Below are positions 1,781 through 34,701 of a stretch of DNA of 34,708 nucleotides, piece by piece. The stretch is from a virus, in the IMG/VR virus record IMGVR_UViG_3300031727_000004, positions 1-34,708 of that record; one strand, written 5' to 3'. How positions within the stretch are numbered: the stretch's first letter is position 1; the number at the start of each line of letters is the position of its first letter. The notes beneath the pieces were generated by a model. It searched no databases, was not told the origin of the DNA, and worked only from the letters and a program-made list of their open reading frames with translations. The position numbers and the translations under genes are program-made.

Positions 1781-1823
1781 TTGACGTGTCATGACGGTGG
1801 GCGTAACGTACGTGTCATGACAC
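1781..1823 (+). promoter_or_regulatory. Promoter with paired TGTCATGAC operator
   Basis: TTGACG (1781-1786), a 17-base spacer and TAACGT (1804-1809) form a good actinobacterial-type promoter. GTGTCATGAC occurs at 1786-1795, just behind the -35 box, and the perfect palindrome GTGTCATGACAC at 1812-1823, over the expected transcription start. The ATG of the next gene is inside the second palindrome. The same arrangement recurs at 28157-28190 and 34024-34066. The -10 to ATG distance of seven bases predicts a leaderless transcript. Confidence 0.7.
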
Positions 1824-2035
1824 AGATCAGCGAGGCGGACGCCCAACTCAGTGCAACCTCAACCCCCGCGCTGCTGCGGGCCGCGTACAGCCTCACCCAC
1901 CAGATGCACATCGCTCGCGGACGCTTCGCCACAGAGTCAGACACGCGTTGCGTAGCCGACGACCTCGAAGACCTACGCGGTCAGCGGAACCTCATCGACG
2001 CCGAGATCATCCGACGCACCAACCAGGGAGCCTGA
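1817..2035 (+). CDS. Small helical hypothetical protein (72 aa)
   Basis: The protein is predicted to be mostly helical (ALLRAAYSLTHQMHIARGRF, then DDLEDLRGQRNLIDAEIIRR). It resembles small phage proteins of unknown role. I chose the ATG at 1817, which follows a -10 box by seven bases and has no Shine-Dalgarno sequence. The alternative is GTG 1772, which overlaps the upstream stop and would add 15 residues read through the promoter. The gene may be made both ways. Confidence 0.6.
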   Translation: MTQISEADAQLSATSTPALLRAAYSLTHQMHIARGRFATESDTRCVADDLEDLRGQRNLIDAEIIRRTNQGA

Positions 2036-3210: not shown

Positions 3211-3924
3211 ATGTCCCCGCTATCGACGCGTGCCCCCTCGGTCACCGACCGGGCGGGCTTGACGTGGGCTGTCGCCGAAGCAGCCGACATCAGTGCTCTT
3301 CTTCGCAGAGAGCACTACCTAGGTCCCCTCAAGGGAGGACGGTTGATAATGGCTGCCCGTGACCAGTCCGGTGACCCGGTGGCCGCCCTCGTCTGGCGCT
3401 CCCCCACGTCGCGCCGTATGCCCAGCGATGGAACCTTTCTGGAACTCTCCCGCTGGTGTCTCACCCCCGCGGCAGGTGTCAATGCTGGTAGTCGATCCCA
3501 CGGAGCCGCCGTCAGACTCATCCGGCAACTCTTCCCCGGGGTCACAACCCTCCTGTCGTACAGCGACCCAAGCGCTGGCCATCGCGGCGAGCTCTACCGA
3601 GCGTGCAACTACCTGTGGGCGCCGACATGGCACCGACTCCGCCCGCCGCCGACCGGCCTCGGGTCGTGGGACGGCGTCACCAGACAGGCCGTCAAAGACA
3701 GGTGGGTCTATCCGGTCCGCCGCGACGAGCGACTAGCGGACATCGTCGCCATCCGAGACGCCGGGGCTATCCGTCGATGGACAGAGGGCCCACCAACTGA
3801 CCTCGAACTCAGGCTCGCCCTTCGGGCCCCCGCATCCGACCTCGCCGCGGCGGCGCGTGTCCTACAAGAGGACCGCAATGCGTTCCTACGATCATCCGAT
3901 AACCCGACAGGAGCACCAGCATGA
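3211..3924 (+). CDS. Mom-like DNA-modification protein
   Basis: The closest family by eye is that of phage Mu Mom, GNAT-related proteins that modify adenine in phage DNA to N6-methylcarbamoyladenine and so block host restriction. Visible landmarks are H35-Y36, FLELSRW (E78), a small-residue loop NAGSRSHGA (91-99), and the signature LSYSDPSAGHRGELYRACNY (115-134), with D119, H124, Y129 and N133. The weak RBS ACAGGA precedes ATG 3211. At 237 residues it fits the family. The last ten or so codons are read from the right copy of the 20-base repeat, out of frame with the repeat's first use. A generic GNAT acetyltransferase is the alternative. Confidence 0.7.
   Translation: MSPLSTRAPSVTDRAGLTWAVAEAADISALLRREHYLGPLKGGRLIMAARDQSGDPVAALVWRSPTSRRMPSDGTFLELSRWCLTPAAGVNAGSRSHGAAVRLIRQLFPGVTTLLSYSDPSAGHRGELYRACNYLWAPTWHRLRPPPTGLGSWDGVTRQAVKDRWVYPVRRDERLADIVAIRDAGAIRRWTEGPPTDLELRLALRAPASDLAAAARVLQEDRNAFLRSSDNPTGAPA
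3893..3912. repeat. 20-bp direct repeat, right copy
   Basis: This copy is identical to 3181-3200. It forms the 3' end of the mom-like gene and supplies the ribosome-binding site (ACAGGAGCACC) of the gene at 3921. Recombination between the copies would remove the whole mom-like gene and leave the 44-residue gene joined neatly to the gene at 3921. Confidence 0.9.
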
Positions 3925-28011: not shown

Positions 28012-28033
28012 CCCGCCGACTCCTTGGACAGCA

Positions 28034-28070
28034 CGAACGCCCCACGACCTGGAGGTTGGTGGGGCGTTCG
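28034..28070. terminator. Terminator hairpin at end of late operon
   Basis: CGAACGCCCCAC (28034-28045) pairs perfectly with GTGGGGCGTTCG (28059-28070). The 13-base loop contains a further ACCT/AGGT pairing, so the structure is long. It begins 23 bases after the holin stop. No T run is present. It is the best candidate for the end of the structural and lysis transcript. Confidence 0.7.
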
Positions 28071-28156
28071 GCGCGAGTAGGGAGCAACCAACCCGACACG
28101 GGTGAGCATACCTGATGGTTGGGTGGTTTGGGGTGACACGGCGTGACGAAACCGTG

Positions 28157-28190
28157 GTGTCATGACGTTGTGCTACGGTTGTGTCATGAC
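28157..28190 (+). promoter_or_regulatory. Paired TGTCATGAC operator with -10 box
   Basis: GTGTCATGAC lies at 28157-28166 and again at 28181-28190. TACGGT (28174-28179) between them is a good TANNNT -10 box. The second copy contains the ATG of the RHH gene, seven bases after the box ends. No clear -35 is seen at 17 bases. Related elements are at 1781 and 34024. Tandem palindromes are the usual target of RHH repressors, so the gene just downstream may regulate itself here. Confidence 0.65.
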
Positions 28191-28359
28191 AACGAATCGA
28201 GGCACGACCCGCCGGTCACTGCGCGTCGCCGACTCCCTGTGGGAGCGGTTTGCCGCTTGGTGCAACGGCCGCGGCGTCAGCATGACCGAGCGGCTCATCG
28301 AACACATCAAGGAGGATCTCGCCCAGGGCGAGCACAGCGAAAGGAGCAAGGGAGCATGA
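28186..28359 (+). CDS. Ribbon-helix-helix regulator (57 aa)
   Basis: A short beta strand (TTRRSLRVAD, residues about 7-16) followed by two helices (SLWERFAAWCNGRG and SMTERLIEHIKEDLA) fits an Arc/CopG-type RHH DNA-binding dimer. The tail is charged. I chose ATG 28186 inside the operator; upstream ATG 28162 would add eight residues encoded by promoter sequence. It has no Shine-Dalgarno and is probably leaderless. It heads the recombination/replication operon and may repress it through the TGTCATGAC pairs. Confidence 0.72.
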   Translation: MTTNRGTTRRSLRVADSLWERFAAWCNGRGVSMTERLIEHIKEDLAQGEHSERSKGA

Positions 28360-29171
28360 CCGAGCAGGGAGCAACCACCGAGACCGACGACCGCAACATC
28401 GTGCAGCGGATGAGCGCCGTCATGCGGGACATGGACCACGTCGGGAAGACCGGCGACAACCGCGAACAGCACTACAAGTTCCGGCCCGTCGACGAGTTCA
28501 TGAACGCCCTACACGTCCCCCTCGTCCGACACGGCGTCATCATGACCCCGAAGGTCCTGACCCGCGACAGCTTCGAGCGTGACCGCCGCAACCGCCAGGG
28601 CGAGATCATCGGCGTGATGCGTGTCGTCGAGCTGCTCGTCGAGTTCACGTTCCACAGCCCGGACGGCACCACGATCGTCGCTGTCGCTGCCGGTGAAGGC
28701 GCCGACGTCGCCGACAAGGCCACCAACAAGGCGATGGCTGGGGCGTTCAAGTACGCGATCATGCAGACGTTCATGGTCCCCACCCGCGAGCTGCAGGACG
28801 GTGACGAAGACACCCCGGAGATCCCTAGCGGGTCACAGCAGCAGCACGCACAGAACGCCAACCACGACGCGACCGTCGACCTGATGGTGCAGCAGGCCCA
28901 GGAACTCGGACGGCCGGCGATCATGCACGAGCTCGACGAGGGGTGCGAGGCGCTCGGGCAGAGTCGCGCGCAGGTCACGAAGAAGTGGCGCGACGCGCAC
29001 GGTGTCGGCGCGGTCGCGGCCCTCGACGACGAGGACAAGGTCCCGACCGTCGAGCTGTACCGGTTCGTGTTGGCTCTGCGCCCGTACGTGCAGCAGGCTC
29101 GGGAGAAGGCGATGCTGGAGCAGCCGCTTGGCACGACCGCCGCGTCGAGCGACACCCCGGCTGGGGACTGA
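28356..29171 (+). CDS. ERF family single-strand annealing protein
   Basis: ERF proteins anneal complementary single strands in phage recombination. The family features are IVQRMSAVMRDMDHVGKTGD (residues 14-33), YKFRPVDEFMNALHVPLVRH, and GEGADVADKATNKAMAGAFK with YAIMQTFMVPT. The C-terminal third is helical and variable, as usual. RBS AAGGGAGC precedes the ATG, which overlaps the RHH stop. With the nuclease at 29277 it makes a two-component recombination system. Confidence 0.87.
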   Translation: MTEQGATTETDDRNIVQRMSAVMRDMDHVGKTGDNREQHYKFRPVDEFMNALHVPLVRHGVIMTPKVLTRDSFERDRRNRQGEIIGVMRVVELLVEFTFHSPDGTTIVAVAAGEGADVADKATNKAMAGAFKYAIMQTFMVPTRELQDGDEDTPEIPSGSQQQHAQNANHDATVDLMVQQAQELGRPAIMHELDEGCEALGQSRAQVTKKWRDAHGVGAVAALDDEDKVPTVELYRFVLALRPYVQQAREKAMLEQPLGTTAASSDTPAGD

Positions 29172-29172
29172 C

Positions 29173-29280
29173 GTGCACGGCTGGCTGGCGATCGGCGCGA
29201 TCATGGCGGCGATGTTCGTGACGATCCTCGTGGTCGCGTGGATCGAAGACGGAAGCGACGAGAAGGGAGCAGATCAGTGA
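29173..29280 (+). CDS. Tiny membrane protein (35 aa)
   Basis: GTG 29173 starts a product that is mostly one hydrophobic helix (WLAIGAIMAAMFVTILVVAW) followed by an acidic tail (EDGSDEKGADQ). It sits between the annealing protein and the nuclease, and overlaps the latter by GTGA. It is coupled to both and probably expressed. The function is unknown. Confidence 0.5.
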   Translation: MHGWLAIGAIMAAMFVTILVVAWIEDGSDEKGADQ

Positions 29281-30305
29281 AGAGCATCAGTGAGTTGATC
29301 GACGAGTACGAGGAGTCACGCAACGTGGGCCGTGACCCGCGGGTCGGGCCCAGCGACTACGGCAACTGCCCGCGACAGGTCGCGTACCGGGTCCGTGGCC
29401 ACGAGCCCGGCGAGCCCGTCGAACAGACCCGGGCCGCGACGATGGGCACCCTGTTCTGGCAGGGCCTCGGCGAGTGGATCGCCGCGAACTACCCTGACGC
29501 GTGGGTCGAGTCGCGGGTGAAGATCCCCGGCCTCGAACGTGACGGGTCAGCCGACCTCGTGTGGTCACAGGACGGGGTTCTCGTCGATGTGAAGACGGTC
29601 AGTGGGCGGGCGTTCGACTACGTCGTGAAGGTCGGCGGGAAGCCTGAGAATGTCGGGCAGGTCGAGACGTACGCCCTCGGCGTGAACCGCAGGCTCGAGG
29701 ACGCCGACCGGATGCGTGGCGACCTGGACTTGCCCCCCATCGGGTACAAGCCGATCACCCGCCTGCGCCTCGAATACGTCAACCGTGAGAACGGCGACGT
29801 CCACACCGTCGAATGGGCGTACGACGAACAGACCGCCCGCACCAAGGTGTCCGAACTCGCACAGCTCGAGCAGATGATCGACGGAGGGTTCGACATCCCC
29901 CGCGCCCCCGGCGCCCGGCTGGGTGCGTTCCCGTGCGACTGGTGCCCGTTCTGGCGTGAGTGCTGGGACGTCGACAACACCCCCGACGACCGGTCACACG
30001 AATCCAAGTTCACCACCGACGAGCAGGTCGAGGGTGTGATCGAGGACTACTTTCGCGCGCAGGCCGTCGAGGCTGCCGCGAAGCGCGACAAGGACGCGGC
30101 CCGGTCGCGCCTCGTCGGGATCAGATACGACTCCCCGACCGTCGCCCTGACGTGGTCGGGGAACAGGCCGAAGAGCGAAGACGTGATCGACGTCGACGAG
30201 CTGGTGGTGCAGGCGCAGCTCGCGGGCGTGTCGGTGCCGATGAAGACCGTCGACAGCCGCACCCCGTGGCGGATCAACTTGAAGCGGAAGGCGGCAACCG
30301 AATGA
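29277..30305 (+). CDS. Cas4/AddB-like iron-sulphur exonuclease
   Basis: This is a RecB-family PD-(D/E)XK nuclease with D93 (SADLVW), D104 and K106 (LVDVKT) and the QxxxY motif (Q128-VET-Y132). Four cysteines, C31 (YGNCPRQ) and C220-x2-C223-x5-C229 (CDWCPFWREC), are placed as in the 4Fe-4S cluster of Cas4 and AddB. It probably resects DNA ends to feed the ERF protein. No Cas1, Cas2 or CRISPR repeats are nearby, so no CRISPR role is claimed. The start is GTG 29277. Confidence 0.82.
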   Translation: MKSISELIDEYEESRNVGRDPRVGPSDYGNCPRQVAYRVRGHEPGEPVEQTRAATMGTLFWQGLGEWIAANYPDAWVESRVKIPGLERDGSADLVWSQDGVLVDVKTVSGRAFDYVVKVGGKPENVGQVETYALGVNRRLEDADRMRGDLDLPPIGYKPITRLRLEYVNRENGDVHTVEWAYDEQTARTKVSELAQLEQMIDGGFDIPRAPGARLGAFPCDWCPFWRECWDVDNTPDDRSHESKFTTDEQVEGVIEDYFRAQAVEAAAKRDKDAARSRLVGIRYDSPTVALTWSGNRPKSEDVIDVDELVVQAQLAGVSVPMKTVDSRTPWRINLKRKAATE

Positions 30306-30460
30306 GTCACCGGTTCAGCACGAAGGTTCAGGCGACGATCGCTCTAGAGCTACTCTTGGCGGTCGACGACGCGATCGACACTGCAGGGTGCGAGTCTGTC
30401 GCGGATGTCCACGAGTTGCTCGCGCGCCTTATCTTGGGGGCAGAGGAGGCGAGCCGGTGA
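30302..30460 (+). CDS. Small helical hypothetical protein (52 aa)
   Basis: ATG 30302 overlaps the upstream stop. The product (FSTKVQATIALELLLAVDDA, then DVHELLARLILGAEEASR) is helical. It lies between the nuclease and an HNH gene and overlaps the HNH start by GTGA. No function can be read. Confidence 0.5.
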   Translation: MSHRFSTKVQATIALELLLAVDDAIDTAGCESVADVHELLARLILGAEEASR

Positions 30461-30957
30461 GCCGCCCGGGGTACGTCGACCGGCGCGGCAGCAACGCAGA
30501 TCGCCGCCGCCGCCGTGCGTGGCTGCTCGCGAACTTCGACACCGACCTTGGCCCCGAACGGGCGAGGTGCCACCTACGTCTGTCGGTGCTGTGTGAACGC
30601 ACTGTCGACGCCGTGTCGTTGAGCGTGGACCGGATCGAGCGCGGCGGCAGCTACGCGCGGGAGAACATTCAGCCTGCGTGCAAGCCGTGCCAGGATCGGC
30701 AGGGTGGGCTCGCGACCGTCGCGACCATCGGCGCGCTGCTCGTCGAGTACCGTGCCGCCCGCGAGCGGTGGGAGGTCAGGTTCGAGGAAACGAACCGGTC
30801 CTACTACCCGGGTGTGATCGAGGCGGAGCGCCTAAAGGAACGCCGCGGCGGCCGGCGTGAGGTCACGGACTGGCTCGCAGACAACCCGCCGCCCGTGTTC
30901 CGGGATTGGCTGGTGGAGTGGCATGCCGCCCGCCGTGAGGCTGAGAGAACGGGGTAG
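30457..30957 (+). CDS. HNH endonuclease-like protein with altered site (166 aa)
   Basis: The core reads CHLRLSVLCERTVDAVSLSV, then DRIERGGSYARENIQPACKP and CQDRQGG. C38, C46, C75 and C78 could hold zinc. The motif is of the phage DRI...GG.Y..ENIQPAC type. In this family the residue after the second CxxC is usually Asn, but here it is Gln79, so activity is uncertain. Helical sequence follows. The start is GTG 30457. A large hairpin follows the stop. Confidence 0.7.
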   Translation: MSRPGYVDRRGSNADRRRRRAWLLANFDTDLGPERARCHLRLSVLCERTVDAVSLSVDRIERGGSYARENIQPACKPCQDRQGGLATVATIGALLVEYRAARERWEVRFEETNRSYYPGVIEAERLKERRGGRREVTDWLADNPPPVFRDWLVEWHAARREAERTG

Positions 30958-31048: not shown

Positions 31049-31816
31049 ATGCAGTACGCAAGAGTGCCGATCGAGCTAGTCAGGCTCGTCGACGCGAACG
31101 CGGTCGCGGTCTACGTCGCGTTGTGCGACTACGCCCACCGCAAGACGGGCCGGTGTTGGCCGTCGAATCCCGAGCTGGTCGACGTGACGCTGCTGTCGCT
31201 GGCGACTGTGAAGCGCGCCCTGTCTCAGCTTGAGAATGTGGGCGCGATCGAGCGCGAGGGACGCCGGTCGCGCAAGATGCACGTCGTCCCACTTGATCGC
31301 CTTCGGCTCACTGGTGAGCCAAGAGCGAGAAGGTCTAAGGCTCACCCGCGAGCCACCCAAGGCTCACCCGTGAGCCACGGAACCAGAGCCAATGAACCAG
31401 AGAACACGACGTCGCTTCGCGACGCCGTGACCGAGCAGGAGGTCGAAGCCGTGAAGCCGTCAGCAGATGAGCCGATGTTCGAGGTCGAACGCATCCCCGA
31501 ACCGCCGAGGCCGACAGCGCAGGCGTGCGTCGCCGCGTTCTGTGAGGCGTACGGCACGGAGCCGATCGGACGGTCGGCGGTCGGGAGGCTCGCGCAACGG
31601 TTCAAGCAGCTCAGCGAGACGTACCCGCGAGACGAGCTGATTGCCGCCGCCCAGGAGTTGGGTGAGCAGCGGGTCGCGAACCCGAACGCGATCGAGCCGT
31701 TCGTGTTGCGGGCTCGGCAGCCGCGGCATGTGGCTGCGCGGCGGGCGCGGCAGTGGTCGGCGTTGGCGGCCGACACTTTCTCGGCGGCTGGTGACCCATT
31801 CGCCGCCGACGTGTGA
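31049..31816 (+). CDS. Winged-helix replication initiator
   Basis: Residues 1 to about 90 have the winged-helix form of phage replication initiators: YARVPIELVRLVDANAVAVY, RKTGRCWPSNPELVD, LSLATVKRALSQLENVGAIE and a basic wing (REGRRSRKMHVVPL). A disordered linker (87-125) is encoded by DNA carrying three palindromic iterons. The C-terminal domain (about 148-235) is helical (QACVAAFCEAYGTEPIGRSA) and may contact a helicase loader. A primosome role is inferred from analogy with lambda O and DnaD-like proteins. RBS AAGGGAGC precedes the ATG. At 255 residues it is a normal size. Confidence 0.75.
   Translation: MQYARVPIELVRLVDANAVAVYVALCDYAHRKTGRCWPSNPELVDVTLLSLATVKRALSQLENVGAIEREGRRSRKMHVVPLDRLRLTGEPRARRSKAHPRATQGSPVSHGTRANEPENTTSLRDAVTEQEVEAVKPSADEPMFEVERIPEPPRPTAQACVAAFCEAYGTEPIGRSAVGRLAQRFKQLSETYPRDELIAAAQELGEQRVANPNAIEPFVLRARQPRHVAARRARQWSALAADTFSAAGDPFAADV
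31305..31380. other. Candidate replication origin: three palindromic iterons
   Basis: Three 16-base sites of the form GGCTCAC-N2-GTGAGCC lie at 31305-31320 (perfect dyad), 31339-31354 (one base off) and 31361-31376 (perfect). The last two are adjacent 22-base direct repeats (AAGGCTCACCCG, C or T, GAGCCAC). They lie inside the initiator gene, in the segment for the linker, as the lambda iterons lie in gene O. A less GC-rich stretch follows (31381-31409). Confidence 0.65.
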
Positions 31817-33624: not shown

Positions 33625-34037
33625 AGCGTTCGACGGTGAGGCGGAAGCGTCCAGGGAACCGGCGTCGGGAGGCGCCACGGTTCGACCGGGAGGAGTGGGA
33701 CGAGGCGTCGATGCTGTTGTGGGCGCGGTCGCGGGGGCTGTGTGAGCGGTGCGGCGACCGGCCGCCGGCTGAGCGGCATCACCGGAAGCGTCGTCGTGAC
33801 GGCGGGGACCGGCTGTCGAACCTGCTGTTCCTGTGCACGCTGTGTCACGGGGAGATCACGGACCAGCCGGAGAGTGTTACTCGTGCTCGGGCGTTGGGGT
33901 ATGTGGTGCCTGCGTTGGGGATCGCGGAGCCGGACACGTATCCGGTGTTGTTGTGGGGGGCGACGTGGGTGTTGTTGGACGATGGGGGTGGGGCGGTGGC
34001 GTGTGATCCGCCGCGGGCCCCGCTTGACGTGTCATGA
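33621..34037 (+). CDS. HNH endonuclease (classical)
   Basis: C41-x2-C44, H53-H54 (ERHHRKRRRDGG), N67 (LSNLLFLC) and C72-x2-C75-H76 make a complete HNH/zinc active site. The N terminus is very basic. HNH proteins of this kind are often found beside terminase and help packaging. Here, in the circular genome, TerL is about 7 kb downstream, so packaging or homing are both possible. The start is GTG 33621. Its stop codon lies within a TGTCATGAC operator. Confidence 0.82.
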   Translation: MKRSTVRRKRPGNRRREAPRFDREEWDEASMLLWARSRGLCERCGDRPPAERHHRKRRRDGGDRLSNLLFLCTLCHGEITDQPESVTRARALGYVVPALGIAEPDTYPVLLWGATWVLLDDGGGAVACDPPRAPLDVS

Positions 34038-34066
34038 CACCGTGTGGTTGACTGCGTGTCATGACA
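34024..34066 (+). promoter_or_regulatory. Promoter with paired TGTCATGAC operator
   Basis: TTGACG (34024-34029) and TTGACT (34048-34053) are a -35 and a weak -10, 18 bases apart. GTGTCATGACAC (34029-34040) and GTGTCATGACA (34056-34066) are the operator pair, placed as at 1786 and 1812. The HNH stop codon is inside the first copy. The second contains ATG 34061, but a better start with a Shine-Dalgarno is at 34094. Confidence 0.6.
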
Positions 34067-34093
34067 AACCCCGACGAGACCAGGAGCACCACC

Positions 34094-34417
34094 ATGAACC
34101 GCACCATCGCCACCATCCTCGCCGCGCTCGCGCTCATCTTCACCACCATCCCCGCCGCCGGCGCCACCGACGACCACAGCCCCGACGACTCCACTCAGCC
34201 GTTCATCATGATCACCATCGACACCCCACCGTCCGAGCTCGTCGCCGTGGTCACCGACCTGTCCGCCGAGCTCGAGACCACGAAGACCAGCCTTGTCGCG
34301 GCGACCGCGGCGACGGCTGCCGCCCGTGACGAGAAGGTGAGGCTGGTGCGGAAGGTCGACAGGCAGCGCGCGAAGATCGCCGAGCTGCGCGCCAAGTTGC
34401 GGCGTGCACGTCGGTGA
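34094..34417 (+). CDS. Exported coiled-coil protein (107 aa)
   Basis: ATG 34094 follows AGGAGCACC at a normal distance and starts a clear signal peptide (MNRTIATILAALALIFTTIP then AAGA). This start is preferred over ATG 34061, which would hide the signal under eleven extra residues. After a short acidic part (TDDHSPDDSTQP) comes a coiled coil with a basic end (VRLVRKVDRQRAKIAELRAK). It is predicted to be secreted or membrane-attached. Its role is unknown; superinfection exclusion or cell-envelope interaction are guesses. Confidence 0.6.
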   Translation: MNRTIATILAALALIFTTIPAAGATDDHSPDDSTQPFIMITIDTPPSELVAVVTDLSAELETTKTSLVAATAATAAARDEKVRLVRKVDRQRAKIAELRAKLRRARR

Positions 34418-34449: not shown

Positions 34450-34477
34450 TACAGTTTGTGTGACAGACTGTGTGACG
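34450..34477. promoter_or_regulatory. -10 box and TGTGACAGA-type operator
   Basis: TACAGT (34450-34455) is a good -10. Directly after it, at 34459-34477, is TGTGACAGACTGTGTGACG, nearly the same as 31812-31830. The repeat would cover the transcription start, and ends on the GTG start codon, so binding there would block transcription. A convincing -35 was not found. Confidence 0.5.
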
Positions 34478-34701
34478 TGGCTAAGACACCTGTGAGCATG
34501 AGACTCGACGACGACGTCGTCGCATCACTCGACGCTATGGCCGACCACCGCGAACTCACCCGCACCGGCATGACAGAACGGACCATCGAGGTAGCGTTGC
34601 GGGCCCGGCAGCGGGCGTGCAAGGCAACCCACCAGCAGGGCAGACGCTGCGGGGAGTGCGGCATCCTGGTGTCACCTGAACCGACCACCGAAGATCTGTA
34701 G
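34477..34701 (+). CDS. Ribbon-helix-helix regulator with cysteine tail (74 aa)
   Basis: The strand TPVSMRLDDD and helices VVASLDAMADHRE and GMTERTIEVALRARQ are a standard RHH (Arc/CopG/MetJ) fold. A tail with C-x8-C-x2-C may bind zinc. GTG 34477 is preferred because it keeps the N-terminal strand. Upstream TTG 34456 would translate the operator. It probably regulates itself and the gene at 31854 through TGTGACAGA sites. The 3' part is repeated at 1-145. Confidence 0.72.
   Translation: MAKTPVSMRLDDDVVASLDAMADHRELTRTGMTERTIEVALRARQRACKATHQQGRRCGECGILVSPEPTTEDL

Follow-up and report, generated by a model that had tools for sequence, protein, structure and literature searches.

The window, by which we mean the whole stretch of DNA analyzed here (a 34,708-base IMG/VR virus record), comes from an actinobacterial phage and carries terminase, portal, protease, capsid, tape measure and tail genes. 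Its recombination/replication operon opens with the gene of a 57-residue RHH protein. Because the frame of the following ERF gene overlaps the RHH stop, both genes belong to the same operon. The strong hairpin upstream of the operon is without a T run and is likely a terminator separating the late genes from the RHH operon. The relevant genes and features are:

28031-28075, plus strand: strong terminator-like hairpin (-33.9 kcal/mol, z -4.4), setting the RHH operon apart from the tail/lysis-side genes
28186-28359, plus strand: RHH protein gene (57 aa), opening the recombination/replication operon
28356-29171, plus strand: ERF-type single-strand annealing protein (Pfam ERF, E 3.6e-15; PHROG 155)
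29238-30305, plus strand: PD-(D/E)XK / Cas4-like exonuclease (Pfam/PHROG-level matches)
30388-30957, plus strand: HNH endonuclease (PHROG match)
31049-31816, plus strand: O-like replication initiation protein with a helix-turn-helix (profile matches)
1817-2035, plus strand: 72-aa orphan, first gene of operon 1, unmatched in PHROG and lacking a credible match in Pfam
34061-34417, plus strand: 118-aa orphan frame with a signal-peptide-like start and a coiled-coil-like C-terminus (alternative start 34094)

An HTH-like protein is encoded at 1266-1775. Neither an integrase nor a conventional immunity repressor was found among the window proteins scanned, which are a subset of the frames of a possibly incomplete record. 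We note a second RHH gene at 34477-34701, with a probable GTG start at 34477 and a weak match to Pfam RHH_1 (E 0.011). Ahead of it (34456-34476) stand a TACAGT box and two direct repeats of TGTGTGAC at a 12-bp distance, and the gene may have an operator of its own. Since the strand of this second protein differs and its gene has its own TGTGTGAC repeats, it is unlikely to read TGTCATGACA.

Three promoters of the window each carry a pair of palindromes. On the plus strand, TGTCATGAC starts at seven positions (860, 1787, 1813, 28158, 28182, 34030 and 34057), and both strands together give 11 matches against 0.29 expected, a count that none of 100 shuffles equalled. Six of the seven plus-strand copies form the three promoter pairs, with spacings of 26, 24 and 27 bp, while a TGTCATGAC pair at a distance of 20-30 bp arose in none of 300 exact dinucleotide shuffles. 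The copy at 860, located inside a reading frame, is the sole unpaired one. The preliminary description had placed the pairs at 1786/1812, 28157/28181 and 34029/34056 with a spacing of 24-27 bases; these positions are indeed exact matches to GTGTCATGAC, the measured spacings fall in that range, and the exact-motif search that it proposed yields the excess given above. When two mismatches are allowed, enrichment is absent (48 window matches versus 45 expected), and the palindrome sites are therefore sharp. The elements of the three promoters are:

1781-1786, plus strand: -35-like TTGACG of promoter 1, abutting copy 1 (read from sequence)
1787-1795, no strand assigned: putative operator copy 1 of promoter 1, TGTCATGAC (motif search)
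1804-1809, plus strand: -10-like TAACGT of promoter 1, 17 bp from the -35 (read from sequence)
1813-1822, no strand assigned: putative operator copy 2 of promoter 1, TGTCATGACA, containing ATG 1817
28158-28166, no strand assigned: putative operator copy 1 of promoter 2, TGTCATGAC (motif search)
28174-28179, plus strand: -10-like TACGGT of promoter 2, between the copies (read from sequence)
28182-28191, no strand assigned: putative operator copy 2 of promoter 2, TGTCATGACA, containing the RHH start codon 28186
34024-34029, plus strand: -35-like TTGACG of promoter 3, directly before copy 1 (read from sequence)
34030-34039, no strand assigned: putative operator copy 1 of promoter 3, TGTCATGACA (motif search)
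34057-34066, no strand assigned: putative operator copy 2 of promoter 3, TGTCATGACA, containing ATG 34061

The ATG previously noticed within the second copy is present at all three sites (1817, 28186 and 34061), each time in frame with an open frame. A -10-like box had been claimed for every pair, which holds at sites 1 (TAACGT) and 2 (TACGGT); between the copies of promoter 3 only a weak box is found (TTGACT), and promoter 2 lacks a good -35. The third-site frame, formerly given a start at 34094, opens at 34061. The ATG at 34094 lies later in the same frame and has a better ribosome site (AGGAG) than that at 34061, and either may be usable as a start. Some seven bases separate the end of the -10 box from the ATG at both site 1 and site 2, a distance suggestive of leaderless starts, and the 72-aa orphan at 1817 is probably leaderless.

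Profile and model comparisons support well the earlier assignment of the 57-residue protein encoded at 28186 as an RHH protein. It was found at E 5.6e-8 by a family profile built without it, and it matches PHROG 6506 at E 0.0037, a value that is weak alone; the best relative reaches 3.2e-19 and 21 of 32 family members match. PHROG 6506 comprises actinobacteriophage RHH proteins whose annotation, 'Arc-like repressor', was made by similarity. The window protein itself is without any Pfam match, falling short of the gathering cut-off of RHH_1 (PF01402), although that family is hit at E <= 0.01 by 9 of the 32 relatives. The AlphaFold2 model (pLDDT 82) shows an extended N-terminal stretch followed by two helices (residues 16-29 and 33-54), and the protein has the make-up of the RHH fold, namely a short N-terminal strand and two helices in about 45-55 residues; in the monomer model, a single-chain prediction, DSSP does not assign the strand. 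Fold matches of the model include MatP, MazE-mt9, AmrZ, ParG, Arc, CopA, CopG, NikR, PutA and TacA1. The top Foldseek matches are consistently RHH proteins, with E-values that are weak (0.04 and above), as expected because there are only 57 residues, and VIA-align gives Z values up to 6.7 between the model and RHH domains. The closest solved structure by family profile is that of AvtR, an RHH regulator from an archaeal virus (4hv0; E 3.4e-5 over 38 residues only).

Scanning from the palindromes outward, with the exact pair alone as input, gave 77 loci in IMG/VR and 65 loci with a full palindrome pair in GTDB, and recovered many actinobacterial phages, integrative elements and genomes. At the high-GC IMG/VR loci, the largest shared frame cluster is a small RHH protein beside the palindromes. 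A profile search finds an RHH relative at 44 of the 64 high-GC loci with two full palindromes, compared with 3 of 79 other loci; the 64 take in the window and some near-identical records, so that independent cases are fewer. All 44 genes are within 1.5 kb of the palindromes, and most overlap or abut them. Each of 26 related virus records has 2-5 exact copies of the palindrome, most of them at its RHH locus, and 0 matches to the reversed pattern. Most relatives have a single regulated region, and three pairs spread along one genome are unusual. No close relative of the window phage was retrieved via its capsid, exported protein or ERF, and the window protein as a single sequence retrieved no RHH relatives from IMG/VR; an alignment query retrieved nine, all on contigs already reached through the palindromes.

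Some pairs were judged unrelated. Those in Coriobacteriaceae, Granulosicoccaceae and Methylococcaceae MAGs, and on most low-GC contigs, are without such an RHH gene. Paired TGTCATGACA is present on many contigs of one Coriobacteriaceae MAG (L089, L095, L106, L115, L122, L123, L137), and similar recurrence is seen in the Granulosicoccaceae and Methylococcaceae MAGs; these recurrent pairs are possibly interspersed repeats. A separate observation concerns contig L078, where four TGTCATGACA stand in tandem at an exact 24-bp spacing (3529-3610), ~1.3 kb from a single copy that adjoins an RHH gene.

The reverse search began with RHH relatives identified by protein profile in actinobacterial genomes, and pairs were called de novo, without any motif, in the 300 bp upstream of the RHH genes. 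Such pairs were called at 51 of 127 RHH relatives, in genome draws centred on genomes first reached through the palindrome, versus 10 of 547 control stretches from the same loci away from the RHH gene and 0.45% of shuffles. At the other 76 of the 127 no pair was called, some sites being degenerate or distant and some absent. The called pairs share a layout, mostly GTG-six-CAC with copies 22-27 bp apart, while their cores differ. No operator was callable for the G-M-R group and some other profile-found RHH groups, and a clear pair is absent in three of the Mycobacterium phage or prophage RHH relatives examined. Among named phages, GMA1 and BritBrat lack clear palindrome pairs, and matches for most queries were weak or none. 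Arthrobacter phage MrSmee (L336 24295) has one near-palindrome and no pair: a single TGTATATACA stands before a gene run that ends in the RHH gene gp27 (H-T-R), near an integrase gene. In Gordonia phage Hedwig (L332), the 'Arc-like repressor' gp36 has the strand N-T-R and lies downstream of GTGCATGTGCAC and two GTGCCAATGCAC, sites that loosely resemble those of the N-V-R class. As an isolated phage, Hedwig offers a handy laboratory relative.

The relatives also share a promoter geometry. On the strand that leads away from the RHH gene, 44 of 66 related pairs have TTGN immediately ahead of one copy and TAnnnT in the interval between the two, versus 5 of 66 for the same geometry on the opposite strand. 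One copy therefore takes up the -35/-10 spacer and its partner lies over the start point, an arrangement also seen at window sites 1 and 3. Neighboring genes in relatives encode FtsK-type and HerA-type ATPases, a GntR-type HTH protein, an integrase, an HNH protein and an amidase, and are consistent with integrative elements as well as phages.

A strong connection between protein and palindrome comes from the residues of the predicted strand. Numbering by the window protein, whose strand residues are R9, S11 and R13, R-[T/S]-R triads go with the core TGTCATGACA, H-S-R with TGTACGTACA, A-Q-R and P-Q-R with TGTAGCTACA, and N-V-R with TGCATATGCA. Similarly, V-R-R, K-G-R and x-K-R go mostly with TGTGGCCACA or close variants, L-G-R and V-G-R with TGGTTAACCA types, Q-V-R(G) with TGGCTTGCCA, and P-P-R with TGTATCTACA. 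Among distant pairs, i.e., non-redundant proteins <40% identical outside the strand, with the core compared as the inner half-site, equal triads have equal cores in 62 of 62 cases (permutation mean 8.4, maximum 32). The protein-only set, which is small for distant pairs, gives 5 of 5 (permutation mean 0.29, maximum 4). In both sets relatedness is controlled by identity cut-offs alone. Unequal triads share a core in 30 of 705 pairs overall and in 6 of 340 in the protein-only set, so that the code is not strictly one-to-one (A-P-R, for example, occurs with TGTACGTACA). In leave-one-out prediction on the protein-only set, the triad recovers the core in 19 of 19 cases, compared with 11 of 19 for the most similar protein remainder. 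Positions 9 and 11 rank as the top two of all alignment columns in mutual information with the core, in line with RHH proteins in which alternate strand residues set DNA specificity. The window pair stands outside these counts, as its imperfect outer letters put it below the calling threshold; its R-S-R triad predicts TGTCATGACA, and TGTCATGACA is what the window has. These covariation tests argue against a bystander RHH gene and against ancestry as the only cause. Together with the co-occurrence in both directions, they give the proposal that the palindromes are RHH operators good support from sequence comparison, and the window protein is likely the reader of the TGTCATGACA palindrome.

We therefore consider it very likely that RHH dimers on paired TGTCATGACA block polymerase and limit both their own operon and the operons from 1817 and 34061. 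The dimer, through its two-stranded sheet, would read TGTCATGACA in the major groove, with the invariant R13 likely contacting the conserved outer letters and residues 9 and 11 setting the inner ones. At a target promoter, the start point would be covered by one palindrome and the interval from the -35 to the -10 box would hold its partner; with this placement, two bound dimers should exclude RNA polymerase. As the first gene of its recombination/replication operon, the RHH gene should limit that operon by negative autoregulation, and its product should also hold down the operons from 1817 and 34061. The window protein is thus probably an autoregulatory repressor, judged from promoter geometry. 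Repression of three operons had been proposed before; of that proposal, the RHH protein and its operators stand, and repression is argued from anatomy, that is, from the overlap with spacer and start. We infer dimer binding, repression and leaderless starts, as well as a role in timing.

Of the alternative explanations, the one that survives best, though we think it unlikely, has the RHH protein bind these sites mainly as an activator or as a partition or replication-control protein of the ParG, CopG or MatP kind, instead of as a promoter repressor. Plasmid RHH proteins have such roles, ParG, CopG and MatP are among the fold matches, and the pairs of relatives adjoin transfer-type genes of integrative elements. 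The copies nevertheless overlap the -35/-10 spacer and the start point, which are the usual repressor positions, and the window proteins searched include no ParA-like partner.

Less probable still is that another factor, either a helix-turn-helix phage repressor or a host regulator, reads the palindromes and that the RHH gene is merely adjacent. TGTCATGACA would suit a dimeric helix-turn-helix protein too, and the window encodes HTH-containing proteins (the O-like protein and the HTH-like protein at 1266-1775), but the core varies with RHH residues 9 and 11 among relatives, distant proteins included. In the phiC31 system, one actinophage repressor serves many identical promoter palindromes, and repressors of this type bind many scattered inverted repeats; a palindrome of 15 copies was found in the phiC31 genome. 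That palindrome is CTACTCACGTGAGTAG and not TGTCATGACA, TGTCATGAC is absent from phiC31, and the phiC31 repressor is a much larger protein, such that an identity of the window sites with phiC31-type conserved inverted repeats is ruled out.

We give very little credence to the idea that the RHH protein autoregulates its operon as the antitoxin in a type II toxin-antitoxin system: antitoxins are frequent among RHH proteins, and the best structural matches include TacA1 and an antitoxin of MazE type, yet no toxin gene is adjacent, the next gene being that of the ERF recombination protein overlapping the RHH stop, and the pairs recur at two remote promoters. Finally, chance or composition-driven repeats, for which only the two-mismatch matches at their expected frequency speak, are refuted by the counts, since exact copies and pairs far exceed shuffles and turn up again in unrelated records, next to members of the same protein family.

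The reading that we favor, an RHH repressor on paired palindromes, has partial precedents. Arc reads DNA through residues 9, 11 and 13 of its strand; the operators of Arc and MetJ consist of abutting boxes, and Arc dimers are direct neighbors on a single composite operator. The window protein resembles Arc of phage P22 as a small phage RHH protein with a matching fold (identity ~12% in the fold match), and its family covaries at positions 9 and 11. In contrast to the adjacent half-operators on which two Arc dimers bind, the window palindromes are separate, 10 bp long and placed around a -10 box, and those of the family lie mostly 22-27 bp apart. Since the copies do not abut, the analogy with Arc and MetJ is limited to fold and strand reading; the comparison with Arc/CopG-type repressors made in the preliminary description holds in this respect and fails for adjacent, cooperative boxes. 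A second likeness is to ArtA of plasmid pSK41, a single RHH protein at several promoters (PartA, PtraA and PtraL) of a Gram-positive mobile element (PMC6540685). The ArtA element is staphylococcal.

The RHH fold and the annotation 'Arc-like repressor' are already known. In the open literature searched, with subscription journals mostly outside its scope, we found no account of the paired operators, of their promoter layout or of the link between strand residues and operator letters, and no description of operators for PHROG 6506. Searches of the open literature for the motif strings, or for RHH proteins with actinobacterial elements, phages or a recognition code, returned no relevant papers.

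RHH repressors are common, and their protein-to-operator correspondences are usually known singly. In this family, at least eight cores occur under one layout (mostly GTG-nnnnnn-CAC, 22-27 bp apart, around a -10 box) that is repeated across actinobacterial mobile elements, and the residue-to-operator rule is therefore readable from sequence and directly testable. We tentatively suggest, at somewhat less than even confidence, that a single family of small RHH repressors is common to the phages and integrative elements of actinobacteria and that its paired promoter operators diversified via two strand residues, giving a readable natural recognition code and hence dividing mobile elements into distinct groups of immunity or incompatibility. 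Many actinophages and integrative elements carry an 'Arc-like repressor' gene to which no operator had been assigned, and for these genes the results supply a likely target together with its regulator.
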